This document shows positions 40,214 through 49,165 of a stretch of DNA of 64,000 nt, in pieces. The stretch covers positions 1 to 64,000 of the forward strand of contig CATKZW010000010.1 in assembly GCA_949841465.1 (NCBI GenBank), read 5' to 3'. A model generated the notes under the pieces. That model ran no database searches. It had not been told where the DNA came from and worked only from the letters and a program-made list of their open reading frames with translations. Each line of letters opens with the position of its first letter. The stretch's first letter is position 1. Source of the stretch: an uncultured Oscillospiraceae bacterium (lineage in GTDB: Bacteria > Bacillota > Clostridia > Oscillospirales > Oscillospiraceae). Made by a program: the position numbers and the translations under genes.

Positions 40214-41263
40214 ATGACCGACCTGAAATCCATGATCCCGGAGGAGCTGGAGGCGTATTTCAAAACGCTGGGCCAGCCCAAATTCCGGGCCATGCAGGTG
40301 TTCCGCTGGCTCCACCAGGGTGCGGAGTCCTTTGACGAGATGACCAACCTGCCCAAGGCGCTCCGGGAGAAGCTGAAGGCGGACTGCGTCCTCACCGTCC
40401 CCAAGGTGGAGCGCAAGCAGGTGTCCCGGCTGGACGGCACCATCAAATATTTGTGGCGGCTGGGGGACGGAAATTGCGTGGAAACGGTTTTGATGCGCTA
40501 CAAGCATGGGAATACTGTATGCGTGTCCAGCCAGGTGGGGTGCAATATGGGCTGTGTGTTCTGCGCCTCCACCCTGGGCGGAAAGGTCCGGGACCTGACC
40601 CCGGCGGAAATTCTGGACCAGGTAATATTTACCGAAAAGGACAGCGGGGAGGCCGTTTCCAACATCGTCATGATGGGAATCGGCGAGCCATTGGACAATT
40701 TTGACCATGTTTTGCGGTTTTTGACCCTGATAAATCACCCGGACGGGGTAAATATCGGCATGCGGCACATCTCCCTGTCCACCTGCGGGCTGGTAAAGCA
40801 AATTGACAAACTGGCCCAGCTTGGGTTACAATTGACGTTAAGCGTCTCCCTCCATGCGCCGGACGACGAGACCCGCTCCCGGCTGATGCCGGTGAACAAG
40901 GCGGTGGGGGTGGACACCCTGATGGAGACCTGCCGCCGGTATTTTGAGACCACCGGCCGGCGCATCTCCTACGAATATGCCATGGTGGACGGCGTGAACG
41001 ACGGCGACGAGCAGGCCGACCGGCTTGCCCGGCTGCTGAAGGGCCAGCCGGGGCACGTGAACCTGATCCCGCTCAACGAGGTGGCGGAGTCGCCGCTGAA
41101 GCCCAGCCGGCGGGTGCGGCAGTTCCAGCAGCGGCTGGAGGGGCACGGCGTCACCGCCACGGTGCGGCGGAAGCTGGGGGGCGACATCGACGCCTCCTGC
41201 GGCCAGCTGCGGCGGAGGAAGATCATGGAGGAGACCCATACCCCAGAGGAGGGATTAACTTGA
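40214..41263 (+). CDS. rlmN: Dual-specificity 23S rRNA/tRNA adenine-C2 methyltransferase
   Basis: Radical-SAM enzyme that methylates A2503 of 23S rRNA and A37 of some tRNAs; 349 residues. The [4Fe-4S] motif is CNMGCVFC (CxxxCxxC, near 109-116). The catalytic Cys near the C-terminus is seen in DASCGQL and a GEPLDNFD motif near 160 is typical. RlmN and not Cfr is favoured by the housekeeping setting. ATG 40214 follows AGGGGTGATT. It overlaps prpC by 4 bp (TTGA). Confidence 0.96.
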   Translation: MTDLKSMIPEELEAYFKTLGQPKFRAMQVFRWLHQGAESFDEMTNLPKALREKLKADCVLTVPKVERKQVSRLDGTIKYLWRLGDGNCVETVLMRYKHGNTVCVSSQVGCNMGCVFCASTLGGKVRDLTPAEILDQVIFTEKDSGEAVSNIVMMGIGEPLDNFDHVLRFLTLINHPDGVNIGMRHISLSTCGLVKQIDKLAQLGLQLTLSVSLHAPDDETRSRLMPVNKAVGVDTLMETCRRYFETTGRRISYEYAMVDGVNDGDEQADRLARLLKGQPGHVNLIPLNEVAESPLKPSRRVRQFQQRLEGHGVTATVRRKLGGDIDASCGQLRRRKIMEETHTPEEGLT

Positions 41264-41997
41264 ACGTATTCGGTGTGACGGACGTGGGCCGCGTCCGCCG
41301 GGACAACCAGGACAGCTTTGCCATCCGCCAGATCGGCGAGGAGGCGGTGCTGCTGGTGGTGTGCGACGGCATGGGCGGCGCCCGGGCCGGGAGCGTGGCC
41401 AGCTCTGTGGCGGTGGAGGCATTCATGCAGGCGGTGGAGGCGGCCCTGGCCGGCGGCCTGCCGGAGGACCTGGCCCTGCGGGAGCAGATGCTGTGCGAGG
41501 CCTGCCGCACTGCCAACGAGAACGTGCACCGGCTCAGCCTGGAGAACCGGGAGTACGATGGAATGGGCACCACCCTGGTGGCCGCCCTGGCGGCCCCCGG
41601 CTCGGTATGCTTCGTAAACGTAGGGGACAGCCGGGGCTATGTACTGTCAAATTCTTCCATACATCAGGTGACGGTGGACCACTCCCTGGTCCAGCTGCTG
41701 GTGGAGCGGGGTGAGATCACCCCCGCCCAGGCCAGAGTACATCCCCAGAAGAACTTGATTACTCGGGCGCTGGGGGTGGACAGCCAGGTGGAGTGCGACG
41801 TGATCTGGCTGGAGCCCGCCCCGGGCAGCCGTCTGCTGCTGTGCAGCGACGGGCTGAGCAACGTGCTGGACGACGAGACGCTGCTGAGCCTCTGCGCCGG
41901 GCACGGGACGCCGGAGGAGCTGTGCCGGACAATGCTGGAGCTGACGCTGGAACGGGGCGCGCCGGATAACGTGACCGTTGTGCTGGCGCAGCTGTGA
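41260..41997 (+). CDS. prpC: PP2C-type protein serine/threonine phosphatase
   Basis: Mn2+/Mg2+-dependent phosphatase that reverses phosphorylation by the neighbouring PASTA kinase; 245 residues. PP2C metal-binding motifs are VRRDNQDSF, VCDGMGG (near 32-38), FVNVGDSRGY and SDGLSN, and GAPDNVTVV at the end. It starts with TTG 41260, overlapping the rlmN stop, with GGAGGG 6-7 nt upstream. pknB begins 17 bp downstream, the usual phosphatase-kinase pair. Confidence 0.96.
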   Translation: MNVFGVTDVGRVRRDNQDSFAIRQIGEEAVLLVVCDGMGGARAGSVASSVAVEAFMQAVEAALAGGLPEDLALREQMLCEACRTANENVHRLSLENREYDGMGTTLVAALAAPGSVCFVNVGDSRGYVLSNSSIHQVTVDHSLVQLLVERGEITPAQARVHPQKNLITRALGVDSQVECDVIWLEPAPGSRLLLCSDGLSNVLDDETLLSLCAGHGTPEELCRTMLELTLERGAPDNVTVVLAQL

Positions 41998-42014
41998 CGA
42001 GGAGGACTTTTACC

Positions 42015-44090
42015 ATGGATCAATACATAGGTAAAATGCTCGACAATCGGTATGAGATCATAGAGTGCATTGGGACAGGCGGCATGGCCGTGGTGTACAA
42101 AGCGCGGGACCACCGGCTTAACCGGCTGGTGGCGGTGAAGATCCTCAAGCCGGAGCTGGCCAGCGACGCCGATTTCCGCCGCCGTTTCCACGATGAATCC
42201 CAGGCGGTGGCCATGCTGTCCAACGCCAATATCGTGTCGGTGTACGATGTGAGCCATTCCGACGGGCTGAACTATATCGTCATGGAGCTGATCGACGGCC
42301 TGACGCTCAAGCAGTATATGCAGCGCCGGGGCACCCCGCTGAACTGGCGGGAGGCGGTGCATTTCATCACCCAGATCATGCGGGCGCTGAGCCACGCCCA
42401 CTCCCGGGGCATCATCCACCGGGACATCAAGCCCCACAACATCATGGTCCTCCGGGACGGCAGCGTGAAGGTCACCGACTTCGGCATCGCCCAGCTGGCC
42501 AGCGCCGCCCAGACCACCATGACCCAGGAGGCCATCGGCTCGGTGCACTATATCTCCCCGGAGCAGGCCAAGGGCAGCCACGTGGACTGCCGCACGGACA
42601 TCTACTCCGCCGGGGTGGTGCTGTACGAGATGATTACCGGGCGCCTCCCCTTCGAGGGGGACACGCCGGTGGCGGTGGCCATCCAGCACATCAAGTCCAT
42701 CCCCATCCCGCCCAGGGACCTGAACCCGGACGTGCCCCGTGCGCTGGAGGCCATCACCCTGCGGGCCATGGCCCCGGAGCTGGGCCAGCGGTACGCCTCC
42801 GCCGACGAGATGCTGGAGGATTTGAAGGAATTCCGCAAGAATCCGGACTACGAGCCTGCCGTCCGGGTGGAGCCGGAGGCGGCTGCGGACGAACCCACCA
42901 TGGTGATGCCCAGCAAGGTGATTACCGCCTCGGTGCGGGTGCCGGCGGAGCGTATGGAGCGGGAGCCGGTCCGGCAGGAGCCGCCGCCGCGCCGCCGCCG
43001 TCAGGAGGAGGACGACTACTATTATGACGACGAGCCCCCCCGCCGGGGCAGCGCACTGCCTGCGGTGGCGGCGGTGCTGGTCATTCTGATTTTCATTGTC
43101 GGCATCGGCTGGTTCATCCTGAACGTGCTGCTCAAGGATATGTTTACCGCGGCCCCGGAGTACACCGTTCCCAGCCTGCTGGGCCATACTCTGGAGGAGC
43201 TGGAGCAGAATCCGGCGCTGCTGGACGGCTTCACCTTCCAGCAGGGCCCGGTCAAGAAGAGCAGCGAGTACCCGGAGGGCCAGATCTGTGAGCAGGACCC
43301 CGCCCCCAACAGCAAGGTCCGGGAGGGCGGCAGGACCATCACCGTCAGCGTCAGCGGCGGGGACGATAAGATGTATATGCCCAGCGTGGAGACCTGGGAG
43401 GCCCGGGTGGCGCTCAAGACCCTCCAGGACGAGATGGGGCTGAAGGTGAACCAGGAGCGGGAATTTGACGACAACATCACAGAGGGATATGTCATCTTCC
43501 AGAGCCTGCTGCCGGACACCCAGGTGGAGAAGGGGGACGAGGTGACCATCGTCATCAGCAAGGGCCCTGAGATCCCCAAGGTGACGGTGCCGCCCCTGGT
43601 GAACATGTCCATTGAGCAGGTGCGCACCCAGCTGGACGGCATGGGCTTGAAGGGGAAGGAGACGGAGCAGTTCAGCGACGAGTACCCCGAGGGCCGGGTG
43701 ATCTGGCAGAGCATTGAGGCGGGCACCCAGGTGGAGAAGGACACCGTCATCGACCTGTGGGTGAGCAAGGGCCCGGAGCCGGCGCCCTCTGTGGAGCCCA
43801 CGCCCTCCGACGAGCTGCCGGTCAGCGAACCGCCGGAGGAGAGCGGCCCCATAGCGGAACCCACCGAAGCCATCAATCCCACCAGCACACGGAACATCGA
43901 GGTGGACCTGAGTTCCTATGAGGGCACGGTGAACGTGCGCATTGTGGTGGGCGAGATGGAGGTGCATAACGGCGCGGTGGATGCCAACCAGGACATCATT
44001 TTCAGCAAGCCCGTCACCGCCTCCTGGCCGCAGATGGTGTATATCTATATCAATGAGTTGCTGGTGAACAGCTACTCCATGCAGCCCTGA
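42015..44090 (+). CDS. pknB: Serine/threonine protein kinase with PASTA domains (PknB/PrkC family)
   Basis: Membrane kinase that senses muropeptides/lipid II and controls growth, cell-wall synthesis and spore germination in Firmicutes; 691 residues. Kinase domain: Gly loop GTGGMAVVYKA, Lys42 (VAVKIL), catalytic HRDIKPHN (about 135-142), DFG at 155 and APE-like SPEQAKG. A basic/Tyr-acidic linker precedes one membrane segment (about 346-372). Three PASTA repeats (about 375-590) and a Pro/Ser/Glu-rich stalk plus a terminal beta-rich domain (about 610-691) lie outside. ATG 42015 follows GAGGAGGAC. Confidence 0.96.
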   Translation: MDQYIGKMLDNRYEIIECIGTGGMAVVYKARDHRLNRLVAVKILKPELASDADFRRRFHDESQAVAMLSNANIVSVYDVSHSDGLNYIVMELIDGLTLKQYMQRRGTPLNWREAVHFITQIMRALSHAHSRGIIHRDIKPHNIMVLRDGSVKVTDFGIAQLASAAQTTMTQEAIGSVHYISPEQAKGSHVDCRTDIYSAGVVLYEMITGRLPFEGDTPVAVAIQHIKSIPIPPRDLNPDVPRALEAITLRAMAPELGQRYASADEMLEDLKEFRKNPDYEPAVRVEPEAAADEPTMVMPSKVITASVRVPAERMEREPVRQEPPPRRRRQEEDDYYYDDEPPRRGSALPAVAAVLVILIFIVGIGWFILNVLLKDMFTAAPEYTVPSLLGHTLEELEQNPALLDGFTFQQGPVKKSSEYPEGQICEQDPAPNSKVREGGRTITVSVSGGDDKMYMPSVETWEARVALKTLQDEMGLKVNQEREFDDNITEGYVIFQSLLPDTQVEKGDEVTIVISKGPEIPKVTVPPLVNMSIEQVRTQLDGMGLKGKETEQFSDEYPEGRVIWQSIEAGTQVEKDTVIDLWVSKGPEPAPSVEPTPSDELPVSEPPEESGPIAEPTEAINPTSTRNIEVDLSSYEGTVNVRIVVGEMEVHNGAVDANQDIIFSKPVTASWPQMVYIYINELLVNSYSMQP

Positions 44091-44094
44091 GCCC

Positions 44095-44982
44095 ATGACG
44101 GGACGGATTGTCAAGGCCCTCAGCGGGTTTTACTACGTGGATGCCGGGACGGGGGAGCCCATCCCCTGCCGGGGCCGGGGAAAGCTGCGCCATCAGAGGG
44201 TCAGTCCCCTGGTGGGCGACCGGGTGGAGATCACCGTCACCGACAACGGCAGGGGGATGGTGGACGCCATCCTCCCCCGGAAGAACCAGTTCAGCCGCCC
44301 TGCGGTGGCCAACATCGACCAGATGGTGATCGTGGCCTCCGGGGCCGTCCCGGTGACGGACCCCTTCCTCATCGACCGCATGGCGGCCATGGCGGAGTGG
44401 AAGGGCTGTGAGCCCCTCATCGTGTTCAACAAGTGCGATCTGGAGCGGGCGGACGGGCTGGCGGAGCTGTACCGCGCCGCGGGCTTCGCCGTCCTCCAGG
44501 CCAGCGCGGAGACGGGGGAGGGGGTGGACGGCCTGTCCGCCGCCATCGCCGGCAAGGTGTCCGCCTTCACCGGCAACTCCGGCGTGGGCAAGTCCAGTAT
44601 CCTCAACGCCCTCCAGCCCGGGTTCGGGCTCCGGGTGGGCGAGGTCAGTGAAAAGCTGGGCCGGGGACGGCACACCACCCGCCATGTGGAGCTGTTCCCG
44701 GTGGCGGGGGGCCTGGTGGCGGACACGCCGGGCTTCTCCTCCTTCGACGTGGAGCAGATGGAGGCCATCCCCAAGGATGAGCTGGCCGGGGCGTTCCGGG
44801 AATTTGCCCCCTATGCGGGCTGCTGCCGGTTCCAGGGCTGCGCCCACATGAAGGAGCGGGGCTGTGCCGTGCGGGAGGCTCTGGCGGATGGAAGGATTGC
44901 CCCCAGCCGCCATAAAAGCTATGTGCGCCTGTATGAGCAGGCCAAGGAGATCCCCGAGTGGGAGCTGGCTAAGCGCAAATAA
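44095..44982 (+). CDS. rsgA: Ribosome small subunit-dependent GTPase RsgA
   Basis: Late 30S-assembly GTPase of 295 residues with circularly permuted motifs: an N-terminal OB domain (about 1-70), then G4 NKCD (near 108), G1 GNSGVGKSS (near 159), G3 DTPGFSS, and a C-terminal zinc domain with Cys and His in YAGCCRFQGCAHMKERGC. It follows pknB by 4 bp without a clear Shine-Dalgarno, so it may depend on coupling. This is the prpC-prkC-cpgA order of B. subtilis, but rpe and thiN do not follow. Confidence 0.97.
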   Translation: MTGRIVKALSGFYYVDAGTGEPIPCRGRGKLRHQRVSPLVGDRVEITVTDNGRGMVDAILPRKNQFSRPAVANIDQMVIVASGAVPVTDPFLIDRMAAMAEWKGCEPLIVFNKCDLERADGLAELYRAAGFAVLQASAETGEGVDGLSAAIAGKVSAFTGNSGVGKSSILNALQPGFGLRVGEVSEKLGRGRHTTRHVELFPVAGGLVADTPGFSSFDVEQMEAIPKDELAGAFREFAPYAGCCRFQGCAHMKERGCAVREALADGRIAPSRHKSYVRLYEQAKEIPEWELAKRK

Positions 44983-45105: not shown

Positions 45106-45213
45106 TTAGGCGTTCAGGTAGGGATAGTACGCCACGTAGTAGAAGACGTTCATCTCGTGGGCGTCAGCGCCGTTGAGCTCCTGAATCGCCATGCGTTCGT
45201 TGGTCTCAAACAT
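45106..45213 (-). CDS. Small peptide gene 2 (35 residues, Tyr-rich C-terminus), function unknown
   Basis: Encodes a 35-residue peptide: MFETNERMAIQELNGADAHE followed by an aromatic tail MNVFYYVAYYPYLNA. It has AAAGGAG about 10 nt upstream of the ATG, and the stop is in frame with no longer alternative. No signal peptide or cysteine is present. It lies 65 bp downstream of a similar-sized peptide gene on the same strand, and the two could be a bicistronic unit. Such layouts occur for signalling peptides, RiPP precursors and short regulatory proteins, but I do not recognise a family and no modification enzyme is nearby. Confidence 0.6.
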   Translation of the reverse strand: MFETNERMAIQELNGADAHEMNVFYYVAYYPYLNA

Positions 45214-45278: not shown

Positions 45279-45383
45279 TCAGGGGAGGAGAAACTGAATC
45301 AGGGCCTTAACACCGCCGACGATTTTCCGTTCCTCAGTGCCCCAAAGCTGCTGCATCTCCCTCAGGTCGTTACAGTCGAGCAT
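45279..45383 (-). CDS. Small peptide gene 1 (34 residues, amphipathic C-terminus), function unknown
   Basis: Encodes a 34-residue peptide: an acidic/polar N-half MLDCNDLREMQQLWGTEER and a cationic-hydrophobic C-half KIVGGVKALIQFLLP. The Shine-Dalgarno AAGGAGGTGA is near perfect, 8 nt before the ATG, stronger than most genes in the window, which is good evidence that it is translated. An imperfect palindrome with a TAGTATACTA core (45403-45426) sits just upstream; read on the reverse strand it contains TATACT, a possible -10. The C-half could form an amphipathic helix. Function unknown. Confidence 0.65.
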   Translation of the reverse strand: MLDCNDLREMQQLWGTEERKIVGGVKALIQFLLP

Positions 45384-45402: not shown

Positions 45403-45426
45403 GCGTAAACTAGTATACTACTACGC
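45403..45426 (-). promoter_or_regulatory. Palindrome with embedded -10 ahead of the two peptide genes
   Basis: Core TAGTATACTA (45411-45420) with outer arms GCGTA (45403-45407) and TACGC (45422-45426). The core includes a reverse-strand TATACT. It may be a promoter with an overlapping operator; the -35 is weak. Confidence 0.45.
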
Positions 45427-45514
45427 AGGAAAAAATGGAAGAGGAGAGTTGTATAATATATCCAAAAAAGAACCTTGATTTTTGTGCAGAAAAACGGAAA
45501 ACTGCAAATTCGAC

Positions 45515-45544: not shown

Positions 45545-45636
45545 ACCCACATTTCAGCCCGAAATTGCATGAACAAGACAACCTTCCTTCACATATGCTG
45601 GTATATATCCCGCCGTTGAGAAAGGGGGTCGTTTCC

Positions 45637-45708
45637 ATGCGGGTGGTCGTGGTGAAGTTTCCCAAGGCGCTGTGCGGCCTGATGCGCAAGATTTTCCATA
45701 TGGACTGA
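45637..45708 (+). CDS. spoVM: Stage V sporulation protein M (23-residue SpoVM)
   Basis: Tiny amphipathic peptide that recognises the positive curvature of the forespore outer membrane and recruits SpoIVA, the base of the spore coat. The product MRVVVVKFPKALCGLMRKIF... aligns without gaps to B. subtilis SpoVM (26 residues, from memory): Met1, Lys7, Pro9 (needed for curvature sensing), Lys10, Leu12, Gly14 and Arg17 all coincide, and positions 3-6, 8 and 15-16 are hydrophobic in both. GAAAGGGGG precedes the ATG at 45637. Position also supports the call: downstream of rsgA as in B. subtilis, and directly before sipL and spoIVA. Confidence 0.9.
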   Translation: MRVVVVKFPKALCGLMRKIFHMD

Positions 45709-45757
45709 GCCGTTCACCGGACCGATTATAAGCGCCCAGGGCGCTTTGGACGAACAG

Positions 45758-45786
45758 GCATATCCGGGCCGCTCCTTTCATATAGT
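45758..45786 (+). promoter_or_regulatory. Sigma-E promoter of sipL
   Basis: -35 GCATATC (6 of 7 to KMATATT) at 45758-45764, 14-bp spacer, -10 CATATAGT at 45779-45786 (CATA and final T conserved), 34 bp before the sipL ATG. This agrees with mother-cell transcription early in sporulation. Confidence 0.75.
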
Positions 45787-45820: not shown

Positions 45821-47350
45821 ATGGATATGGAATTGCAGCGTGTCACGCTGGAGGGGTACCGAGGCGCGGCGCAGGTGATGTTCACCCAGGAGGAGACGCT
45901 GGAGAGCATCGTCCCCGACGCCTGCCCGGACATTGCCCGGATCGTCTCGGCGTCGGGCAAGGTGTTCCTGAAAGAAAAGGAGCTGGGGGAGGGCACCCTC
46001 CGCATCAGCGGGAACGCCAGGGTCACCGTGCTGTACATACCTGAGGGGGAAGGGATGGGGGAGGAAAAAGATTTGCCGCGGTCGCTGGAGGTGTCCATCC
46101 CCTTCCAGTGTGTCCGGGACGACCCCAGGTTCCACGCCGGCTGCCCGGTGCTGGCGGACCTCCAGGCCCCGTCGGCGGACGCCCGGACCATCAATCCCCG
46201 GAAGATTCTGGCGCGGGTGTGCGTGTCGGTGTGGGCAGCGGCCTATGAACAGGAGCACAAGGAGCTCACCGCCGACCTGACGGTTGGCGAGGGGGAAGGG
46301 CTGCAAAAGCTGGCCGTACCCCGGAAGTGCTGCGTGATTCCCAGCGTGTCGGAGAAGGCGTTTACCTTTTCCGATGTGCTGCGCCCCCCCGCCTCCCGGC
46401 CTGAAATCGAGGAGCTGCTGTGCTGCCGGGCGGAGCTGGGGACGGCGGACGCCAAGTTCATCGGCAAGAAGCTGGTGCTCAAGGGGGACGTGCAGCTCTC
46501 GACGGTGTACCGCTCCGGCGAGGCGGTGAGCCAGGCCCGGTTTGAGCTGCCCTACTCCCAGATCCTGGACATCGGGGAGCTGCCCGACGAGGCGGAGCCC
46601 GAGGTGGCGGTGACGCTGAAAAGCGTGGACTGCCAAGCCCGGGAGGGGGAGCTGGAGGTGTCTCTGGAGGTGCTGGCCCAGGCGGCGGTGTGGGAGCGGC
46701 GTTCCGTCACCTTGGTCAGCGACGCCTACTGCGTGGGAAAGCCCATCGACGTGGAGCGCACGCCGGTGCAGCTGTGCACCATGGCGGAGCGGTCCGCCCG
46801 GCGGGAGATGGGGCGGAAGCTGTGCGAGTCGGGCATACCGGCCAAGCAGGTGCTGGACTGCGCCGCGGCAGTGTCCTCCCTGGCGGGGGCCCCGGCGGAG
46901 GGCGGCATGGAGTTCACCGCCCAGGTGAACGCCGCCGTGCTGTACCTCAGTGAGGACGACGCCCTGTGCGGCGTGGAGGCGGACATACCCGTGACCTGCC
47001 GGGTGGAGGTGCCCGAGGGGTGCCAGTGCGCCTGCCGCTGCCGCCCAGTGGGGGAGGCCACCGCGGTGCCCGTCACCGGCGGGCTGGAGGTGCGCTTTGA
47101 GGCGGAGTTTGCCTGGACCGTCACCAGGGAGGAGCAGGTGAGCGTGGTGTCCGGCGTCCGGCCCAGCGCGGTGGAGGACACCGGCCCCCGGCCGTCGGTG
47201 GTGATCCGCCGGGTGGAGCTGGGGGAGGCGCTGTGGGACATTGCCAAGTCCTGCGGTTCCACCGTAGCGGACATCTGCTCAGCCAACACTCTGCCCGGCG
47301 AGGAGGCGGCGGTGGGCACCCTGCTGCTCATCCCCGCAAGGAGGAACTGA
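45821..47350 (+). CDS. sipL: SPOCS/LysM spore-coat morphogenetic protein SipL
   Basis: Clostridial functional counterpart of SpoVID, which binds SpoIVA and drives encasement of the forespore by coat; 509 residues. It has repeated beta-rich SPOCS (DUF3794) units (about 20-160, 165-290 and 320-445), with landmarks such as VPDACPDIARIVSASGKV, and a C-terminal LysM domain (about 455-505) with VELGEALWDIAKSCGSTVADICSAN and a closing LLLIPARR (landmarks quoted in part). In C. difficile the LysM domain contacts SpoIVA. SD GGGAGAGG precedes ATG 45821. spoVM lies 112 bp upstream and spoIVA follows after a repeat element. Confidence 0.92.
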   Translation: MDMELQRVTLEGYRGAAQVMFTQEETLESIVPDACPDIARIVSASGKVFLKEKELGEGTLRISGNARVTVLYIPEGEGMGEEKDLPRSLEVSIPFQCVRDDPRFHAGCPVLADLQAPSADARTINPRKILARVCVSVWAAAYEQEHKELTADLTVGEGEGLQKLAVPRKCCVIPSVSEKAFTFSDVLRPPASRPEIEELLCCRAELGTADAKFIGKKLVLKGDVQLSTVYRSGEAVSQARFELPYSQILDIGELPDEAEPEVAVTLKSVDCQAREGELEVSLEVLAQAAVWERRSVTLVSDAYCVGKPIDVERTPVQLCTMAERSARREMGRKLCESGIPAKQVLDCAAAVSSLAGAPAEGGMEFTAQVNAAVLYLSEDDALCGVEADIPVTCRVEVPEGCQCACRCRPVGEATAVPVTGGLEVRFEAEFAWTVTREEQVSVVSGVRPSAVEDTGPRPSVVIRRVELGEALWDIAKSCGSTVADICSANTLPGEEAAVGTLLLIPARRN

Positions 47351-47628: not shown

Positions 47629-47657
47629 GCATATTTTCGGGCCGAGCCCCATACATA
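47629..47657 (+). promoter_or_regulatory. Sigma-E promoter of spoIVA
   Basis: -35 GCATATT (perfect KMATATT) at 47629-47635, 14-bp spacer, -10 CATACATA (7 of 8) at 47650-47657, 32 bp ahead of the start codon. It begins 15 bp past the repeat element. Confidence 0.8.
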
Positions 47658-47689
47658 TAAAATTGAGTATGCGTGAGGAGGGTTCAGCT

Positions 47690-49165
47690 TTGGAAAACAA
47701 ACTGTATGAGGATATCGCCCAGCGCACCCAGGGCGACATCTATATCGGCGTGGTGGGCCCCGTGCGCACGGGGAAATCCACCTTCATCAAGCGCTTCATG
47801 GAGACCCTGGTGCTGCCCAAGATCGAGAACAATTTCCTCCGGGACCGGGCCCGGGACGAGCTGCCCCAGAGCGGCTCCGGCCGTGTGGTGATGACCGCCG
47901 AGCCCAAGTTCGTCCCCGAGGAGGCGGTGGAGATGGCCATGGAGGACGGCGGCGTGTTCTCCGTCCGGCTCATCGACTGCGTGGGCTACATGGTGCCCAG
48001 CGCCCTGGGGCAGATGGACGGCGAACAGCCCCGCATGGTGACCACCCCCTGGTTCGACCACGAGATCCCCATGACCCAGGCGGCGGAGTACGGCACCCAG
48101 AAGGTCATCACCGACCACTCCACCATCGGCATCGTGGTCACCACCGACGGCTCCGTCACCGATATCCCCCGGGAGGACTACCTGGAGGCGGAGGAGCGGG
48201 TGATTGGAGAATTGAAGGGCCTGGGCAAGCCCTTCATGGTGCTGCTCAACTCCGCCCAGCCCTACGGGGAGCGGGCCCAAACCCTCCAGGCTGATATCGC
48301 CGAGCGGTACGACGTGACCTGCCTGGCCGCCAACTGCCTGACCCTGGACGAGGGGGCGGTGAGCGAGATCATCCGGGCGGTGCTCCACGAGTTTCCGCTG
48401 AAGCAGATGGACCTATTCCTGCCGCCCTGGGTGGATGTCCTGCCCTTTGACCACCCCATCAAAAGCGGGCTGTACGCCATGATCCGGGAGGAGACGGCAG
48501 GGCTCATGCGCCTGCGGGACGCGGAGGGCGCGGTGCTGGCCATGGGCGACCGGGAGGAGGTCAGCTCCGCGGTCCTCAACCGGATGGACATGGGCAGCGG
48601 AGTGGTCACCGCCACCCTGGAGCTGCCCCGGGGGCTGTTCTACTCCACTGTGTCCGAGCGGTGCGGGCTGGAGATCCGGGATGACGGCGATCTGATTGAC
48701 CAGCTCACCCAGATGGCGGCCATGAAGCGCAGCTATGAGAAGGTAGAGGGGGCGCTCCAACAGGTGGAGGCCACGGGGTACGGCATCGTCATGCCCGACC
48801 CGGAGGAGATGACCCTGGAGGAGCCGGAGATCGTCAAGCAGGGGGGACGCTACGGAGTGCGCCTCAAGGCGTCCGCGCCGTCCATCCACATGATGCGGGC
48901 GGATATCAAGACGGAGGTGTCCCCCATCATGGGCACGGAGAAGCAGTCGGAGGAGATGGTGGACTATCTGCTCCGGCAGTTCGAGGGGGACACGGGGAAG
49001 ATTTGGGACTCCAACATCTTCGGCCGCTCCTTCCACGAGCTGGTGGGGGAGGACCTGAACGGCAAGCTCAAGCGGATGCCTGAGGAGGCCCGGGAGAAGC
49101 TGCGGGAGACCCTCCAGCGGATCATCAACGAGGGGTCCGGCGGGCTCATCTGCATCATTTTATAA
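47690..49165 (+). CDS. spoIVA: Stage IV sporulation protein A (coat basement-layer ATPase)
   Basis: Mother-cell cytoskeletal ATPase that polymerises on the forespore surface, anchored by SpoVM, and forms the coat basement layer; 491 residues against 492 in B. subtilis. The Walker A GPVRTGKS (residues 23-30), the LIDCVGYMVPSA switch region, and the conserved C-terminus ending NEGSGGLICIIL are present; many blocks match the B. subtilis protein as I recall it. The start is TTG 47690 (MENKLYEDIA) because GAGGAGGG ends 7 nt upstream and the Bacillus protein begins at the same place. Alone behind its own sigma-E promoter; a bidirectional terminator follows. Confidence 0.98.
   Translation: MENKLYEDIAQRTQGDIYIGVVGPVRTGKSTFIKRFMETLVLPKIENNFLRDRARDELPQSGSGRVVMTAEPKFVPEEAVEMAMEDGGVFSVRLIDCVGYMVPSALGQMDGEQPRMVTTPWFDHEIPMTQAAEYGTQKVITDHSTIGIVVTTDGSVTDIPREDYLEAEERVIGELKGLGKPFMVLLNSAQPYGERAQTLQADIAERYDVTCLAANCLTLDEGAVSEIIRAVLHEFPLKQMDLFLPPWVDVLPFDHPIKSGLYAMIREETAGLMRLRDAEGAVLAMGDREEVSSAVLNRMDMGSGVVTATLELPRGLFYSTVSERCGLEIRDDGDLIDQLTQMAAMKRSYEKVEGALQQVEATGYGIVMPDPEEMTLEEPEIVKQGGRYGVRLKASAPSIHMMRADIKTEVSPIMGTEKQSEEMVDYLLRQFEGDTGKIWDSNIFGRSFHELVGEDLNGKLKRMPEEAREKLRETLQRIINEGSGGLICIIL

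Follow-up and report, generated by a model that had tools for sequence, protein, structure and literature searches.

A probable 23-codon spoVM gene beside sipL in an uncultured Oscillospiraceae bacterium, and its patchy occurrence among relatives

Introduction

An open reading frame of 23 codons lies between rsgA and sipL in an uncultured member of the Oscillospiraceae. Is it a functional spoVM gene, and, if so, how does it come to stand beside sipL? Galperin et al. (2012; PMC3533761) report that spoVM is rarely recognised, with 70 copies omitted in annotation, and that it was not found in several clostridia. The consequences of its loss are unequal: a sporulation block in B. subtilis, and in C. 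difficile a few-fold drop (PMC5607322). An earlier note, made from the sequence alone, had singled out the frame as a spoVM gene that is easy to miss. Here it is examined within the 64,000 nt stretch of DNA that was analysed (contig CATKZW010000010.1, positions 1 to 64,000; “the window”) and across relatives of the organism.

Results

The frame runs on the forward strand from an ATG at 45637 to a stop codon at 45706–45708 (CDS 45637..45708) and yields the 23-residue product MRVVVVKFPKALCGLMRKIFHMD, so that coordinates, frame and product are as first proposed. The ribosome binding site claimed for it is a plausible Shine-Dalgarno-like sequence read from the DNA, AAAGGGGG (45621..45628, forward strand), which ends 8 nt 5′ of the ATG; a G-rich sequence of the same kind likewise precedes the spoVM copies printed for relatives.

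A search with a SpoVM profile had been suggested as a check, and it supports the assignment. The NCBIfam model NF033436 matches the frame at E 4.7e-6 with 26.5 bits, over profile positions 1–22 of 26. This is less than the model's naming cut-off of 31 bits, which is an annotation threshold and no trait of the family: since it is passed in merely 17 of the 82 family genomes with an NF033436 match, it does not define SpoVM membership in the family. A second, independent model, made from 66 relatives with the window's genus excluded, gave the frame 31.5 bits, against 5.1 for the runner-up of 1614 six-frame segments of the window and 9.9 for the top segment in 30 first-order-Markov random windows. 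The frame is the sole SpoVM match in its own genome. Its product has no match in Pfam, and the whole window has none in Rfam at gathering scores. Being both short and under the naming cut-off, the gene is indeed easily missed.

As printed, B. subtilis SpoVM (PDB 2mvh) aligns without gaps to the window protein over residues 1–20, with M1, K7, P9, K10, L12, G14 and R17 identical; the gapless alignment with conserved Lys7, Pro9, Lys10, Gly14 and Arg17 described in the earlier note is confirmed over this span. Where B. subtilis has Lys2, Ile6 and Ile15, the window has Arg2, Val6 and Leu15. According to PMC5607322, Ile6 of the B. subtilis protein binds SpoIVA and is needed for that binding, and Pro9 is the one fully conserved residue in the SpoVM alignments published. 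Within the family, P9 is invariant in all 69 sequences of our alignment A1 (window included), as is M1; residue 6 is Val in 46, Ile in 14, Trp in nine, Phe in six, Leu in three and Met in one of 80 sequences, one row being out of register. These 80 are the window and 79 relatives, with one further genome, G110, excluded. At 23 residues the window protein has the very small size of a SpoVM (under ~30) and is shorter than the 26 of B. subtilis, as had been pointed out, but this is nothing unusual: 38 of the 80 family sequences have just this length, more than have any other (24 residues in 16; range 21 to 38).

The calculated hydrophobic moment of the helix that follows Pro9 marks it as amphipathic: 0.60 versus 0.31 (SD 0.14) for shuffled sequences, 2.4% of which reach the window's value; family-wide, z exceeds 1.64 in 68 of 79 rows. 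Among solved structures in the PDB the window protein as a single sequence has no match, and the family profile finds B. subtilis SpoVM (2mvh) at E 0.001. A fish piscidin that appeared in the profile search at E 0.37 was taken as a chance hit.

The neighbours are as the earlier note had read them, all on the forward strand. Upstream are prpC (PP2C phosphatase; 41260..41997; NF033484, E 1.7e-75), pknB (PASTA Ser/Thr kinase; 41994..44090; NF033483, E 5.1e-174) and rsgA (44095..44982; TIGR00157, E 4.9e-67). Downstream, after a gap of 112 nt, comes sipL (45821..47350; PF12673, E 5e-25, with a LysM domain), and then spoIVA (47690..49165; TIGR02836, E 6.1e-204), two genes 3′ of spoVM. The listed spoIVA frame opens at a TTG at 47663, and a TTG at 47690, preceded by GAGGAGGG, is the likelier start; a predicted sigma-E-like site with likeness to the consensus, GCATATT-N14-CATACATA (47629..47657, forward strand), fits the latter. 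B. subtilis likewise has SpoVM and SpoIVA in the same genome and prpC-pknB-rsgA on the upstream side of spoVM, but there, according to PMC5607322, the 3′ neighbour is rpmB rather than sipL.

Upstream of spoVM itself is a candidate promoter-like block, GAACAAG-N14-CATATGCT (45571..45599, forward strand), that is conserved in close relatives: CATATGCT is found at −40 to −46 in 17 of 18 of these and also in two other genomes (G145 and G066). A family-wide sigma-E promoter of spoVM was considered and is unsupported by scans of the loci, in which the signal exceeded the 99th shuffle percentile in 3 of 78 and the 95th in 11 of 79. Before sipL there is a predicted sigma-E-like site, again by likeness to the consensus (GCATATC-N14-CATATAGT; 45758..45786, forward strand), and a site of this kind exceeds the 95th shuffle percentile in 68 of 79 loci with SpoVM and in 21 of 28 without. 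The two promoter scans used differing score matrices, both set from a sigma-E consensus.

Several smaller features were seen in the same region. An inverted repeat in the gap between spoVM and sipL, AGCGCCC-A-GGGCGCT followed by TTT (45731–45745), is by eye possibly a weak terminator. The gap between rsgA and spoVM holds two antisense genes for small peptides (45106–45213 and 45279–45383, reverse strand) with strong ribosome-binding sites and no match in Pfam or NCBIfam. Their N-terminal parts seem similar and their C-terminal parts unlike, as in precursor or signal peptides; the first is single-copy in the genome, and in the same gap of relatives it is found in L305, L308, L310 and L311, and the second in L309 and L310. 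Upstream of the antisense gene starting at 45383 is an AT-rich partial palindrome, ACTAGTATACTACTACG (~45409–45427), again by eye possibly an operator.

Is the frame maintained among relatives? Named genomes were scanned with the window SpoIVA, and 80 of 227 relatives were kept. These are mostly uncultured Oscillospiraceae, with SpoIVA identities of 95–99% in the nearest, 87–89% in Candidatus Enterenecus, and 82–83% in Pseudoflavonifractor An85, An386a and An44. In 60 of them SpoVM precedes SipL. The other 20 comprise 12 without a SipL match, two whose sipL runs into a contig end, five in which a complete sipL has no adjoining spoVM, and one that is broken. Whole-genome searches of 20 of the 80 relatives, the five unlinked ones included, found SpoVM in all 20, in G460 in part. 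Setting aside L312 and the interrupted G460 leaves 18 fully read copies. Frameshifts and loss of Pro9 or Lys7, which the earlier note would have counted against its claim, were sought in these, and the frame is intact in 18/18, as are P9, K10, G14 and R17; K7 is kept in 17/18, with Arg7 in the remaining one. In the five unlinked relatives (L295–L298 and L302) an intact spoVM stands behind rsgA and sipL is on another stretch, the downstream sequence having been read for at least 1.4 kb in four and ~0.2 kb in L302; upkeep of the frame is therefore independent of sipL.

The more distant G460 (Oscillibacter valericigenes An890) has a spoVM that breaks off after codon 13, with the two parts at separate contig ends (from base 1501 of L313, and at the start of L279), as would be expected from insertion of a mobile element or from a break in the assembly.

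Profile searches of a wider sample of 200 family genomes found SpoVM in 82 with NF033436 (E ≤ 0.1) and in 99 with a model from A1 (E ≤ 0.05; 95 of these at E ≤ 6e-5); SpoIVA was found in 170 and SipL in 160. In 79 of 80 relatives' loci with a SpoVM match, sipL starts no more than 300 nt downstream in the same orientation, and in 62 RsgA, also in that orientation, is found upstream; the stretch read around the match in G110 has neither. One genome rated 100% complete (G125, two contigs) has SpoVM and SipL matches and is not among the SpoIVA matches at E ≤ 1e-20. In 497 of 498 usable SpoVM pairs, from 942 pairs at least 60% identical, dN is below dS, and the window gene differs from two same-genus copies at first, second and third codon positions by 3/1/10 and 4/2/11. 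By these comparisons the frame is under purifying selection.

The linkage of spoVM to sipL looks derived within the window's order. A sample across the class includes 54 genomes with places for both SpoVM and SipL among the matches listed. In the two that belong to the window's order the genes adjoin; outside it, again among the matches listed, none of 52 has sipL beside spoVM (in 43 the two are on different contigs, in eight they are separated by at least 0.8 Mb, and in one by 2.6 kb, on opposite strands), and it is this that suggests a derived arrangement. At the loci inspected outside the order, the frames flanking spoVM were named by eye as thiN, rpmB and asp23. Of the presumably ancestral neighbourhood, with the rsgA side upstream and rpmB downstream, the window has the former, with sipL in the place of rpmB. 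The linkage is undescribed in those titles and abstract openings that literature searches of an open-access library listed, which leaves absence from print unproven.

Repeated loss of spoVM beside a kept sipL is also apparent from sequence. The stretch 5′ of sipL was read in 45 genomes of the family that have SipL among the matches listed, without a fetched SpoVM locus next to it. Eleven have a diverged SpoVM there, and six have neither SpoVM nor a small protein before sipL. The remaining 28 have a small protein of ~50 residues and then, after 35–153 nt (no more than 112 nt in 24 of them), sipL; no SpoVM was seen between the two in any of these (e.g., L158, L165, L169, L178). Where both the small protein and SpoVM are present, the small protein is 119–306 nt from sipL (n = 10). 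On a tree of 95 SpoIVA proteins (57 from genomes with SpoVM, the window included, and 38 from genomes in which it is undetectable despite SpoIVA), SpoVM changes state 12 times, at least six of them on well-supported branches. Some of these absences may be due to incomplete bins or to divergence beyond recognition.

Co-evolution of SpoVM loss with the docking end of SpoIVA was considered and rejected. The C-terminal SGG (residues 492–494 of the window SpoIVA in its 500-residue reading, residue 494 being equated with B. subtilis Gly486 from its distance to the C-terminus and not through an alignment) occurs unaltered in 46 of 57 genomes with SpoVM versus 10 of 38 without. Many SpoIVA columns differ more between the two groups, however (residue 393 at p 1e-12, against 7e-5 for residue 493), and over six independent pairs the trend is not significant (median p 0.25). 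The count left out six rows that were short or had unread letters, 39 loci without a SpoIVA match, and the ambiguous G174.

The small upstream protein is itself common. Under a permissive rule, 54 of the 80 family loci, but not the window, have a hydrophobic, membrane-like protein of ~50 residues directly 5′ of spoVM. A model of one subtype (A2, from 33 sequences) matches in 90 of 243 genomes of the class at E ≤ 0.01. In all 51 class genomes with both A2 and SpoVM matches, the A2 protein precedes spoVM on the same strand, with 20–83 nt between match ends; 39 have an A2 match without a SpoVM match. One genome without a SpoVM match, L377, has a SpoVM-like frame right behind its A2 protein, so that A2 can point to spoVM genes that have been missed. 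The A2 model has no match in the window's genome or in G066. Examples of the A2 type are found in L127, L137, L192 and L377, and five examples of the upstream protein had none above the curated cut-offs in Pfam and NCBIfam. As a class-wide family the protein is undescribed in the titles and abstract openings listed by the same searches, its absence from print again being unproven. In C. difficile, CD25622, a protein of 50 residues, is reported to be cotranscribed before spoVM (PMC5607322); likened by this description, it may be of the same kind. Insertions in CD25622, likely polar on spoVM, are reported there to have essentially the same phenotype as insertions in spoVM, which disfavours a strong separate role for CD25622 in C. 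difficile.

Discussion

The best reading of the frame is a functional orthologue of SpoVM, with a probability of roughly 0.93. The profile match, its being the sole match in the genome, the linkage to sipL, selection, and survival where sipL and spoIVA are elsewhere all support orthology at the level of sequence. What the protein does can be suggested from its homologues in B. subtilis and C. difficile, from which expression in sporulation, membrane insertion and SpoIVA binding are all inferred. By that analogy, SpoVM would most likely be made in the mother cell during sporulation; its amphipathic helix, kinked at Pro9, would insert into the convex outer forespore membrane and so tether the SpoIVA layer to it, and SipL, the product of the neighbouring gene, would bind SpoIVA from the side of the coat.

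Two readings would deny the frame this role. It is very short and under the SpoVM naming cut-off, as a chance open frame before sipL without any product might well be; yet 31.5 bits is far above both the window (5.1) and random (9.9) controls, selection acts at the amino-acid level, and the frame is whole in each of the 18 fully read relatives, which makes mere chance scarcely credible. A translated leader, an upstream frame that regulates sipL without a protein role of its own, would account for a position 112 nt ahead of sipL and for the recurrence of that linkage in 79 of 80 loci. Against it, the frame is intact in the five relatives with sipL elsewhere, SpoVM is not next to sipL in any of the 52 genomes outside the order among the matches listed, and sipL has a promoter-like site of its own; a leader is accordingly very improbable, if slightly less so than chance.

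The harder question is how much the SpoVM orthologue matters to this lineage. It could be a true SpoVM that is accessory here as in C. difficile, with SipL and SpoIVA able to encase the forespore mostly in its absence; such a reading modifies orthology and does not compete with it, and to our minds the odds on it are even. C. difficile spoVM mutants are reported to lose heat resistance only ~3-fold (PMC5607322), and SpoVM is undetectable in 38 of 95 genomes on the SpoIVA tree, with the 12 state changes, at least six well supported, noted above. In the other direction, the gene is kept under purifying selection in the window's close relatives, and some of the apparent absences may be those of incomplete bins or diverged copies. 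As described in PMC5607322, C. difficile resembles the window organism in having a clostridial SpoVM together with SipL and SpoIVA; its spoVM, however, is near rpmB behind CD25622 and largely dispensable, where that of the window is between rsgA and sipL.

A broader and more doubtful scenario would join the orthologue to the small upstream protein. In Clostridia, spoVM may often be half of a conserved two-gene module with the ~50-residue protein. This would have come to stand beside sipL in the window's order, forming a basement-coat cluster, and then been dismantled both ways: in the window's lineage the partner would have been lost and SpoVM kept, and in others the reverse. The functions of the two proteins may overlap, each helping to anchor SpoIVA-SipL at the forespore. 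We consider the scenario unlikely as a whole; if true, such overlap would go some way to explaining the dispensability of SpoVM in some clostridia.

As a gene, the spoVM described here is another member of an already known type, and an ordinary result; what adds interest is the apparently derived grouping with sipL and spoIVA, together with the patchy absence of spoVM and the undescribed neighbour family. Most SpoVM genes in a large gut family fall under the present naming cut-off (17 of 82 genomes with a match pass), and gene neighbours can recover them. This bears on the question, raised by Galperin et al. (2012; PMC3533761), of whether distant SpoVM versions are hidden in clostridia: where that survey has gaps for clostridia, neighbours here led to diverged copies that the NCBI model had missed. 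The spoVM-sipL-spoIVA cluster, with the apparent repeated loss of spoVM from it, offers natural experiments on the need for a membrane anchor of the spore coat.
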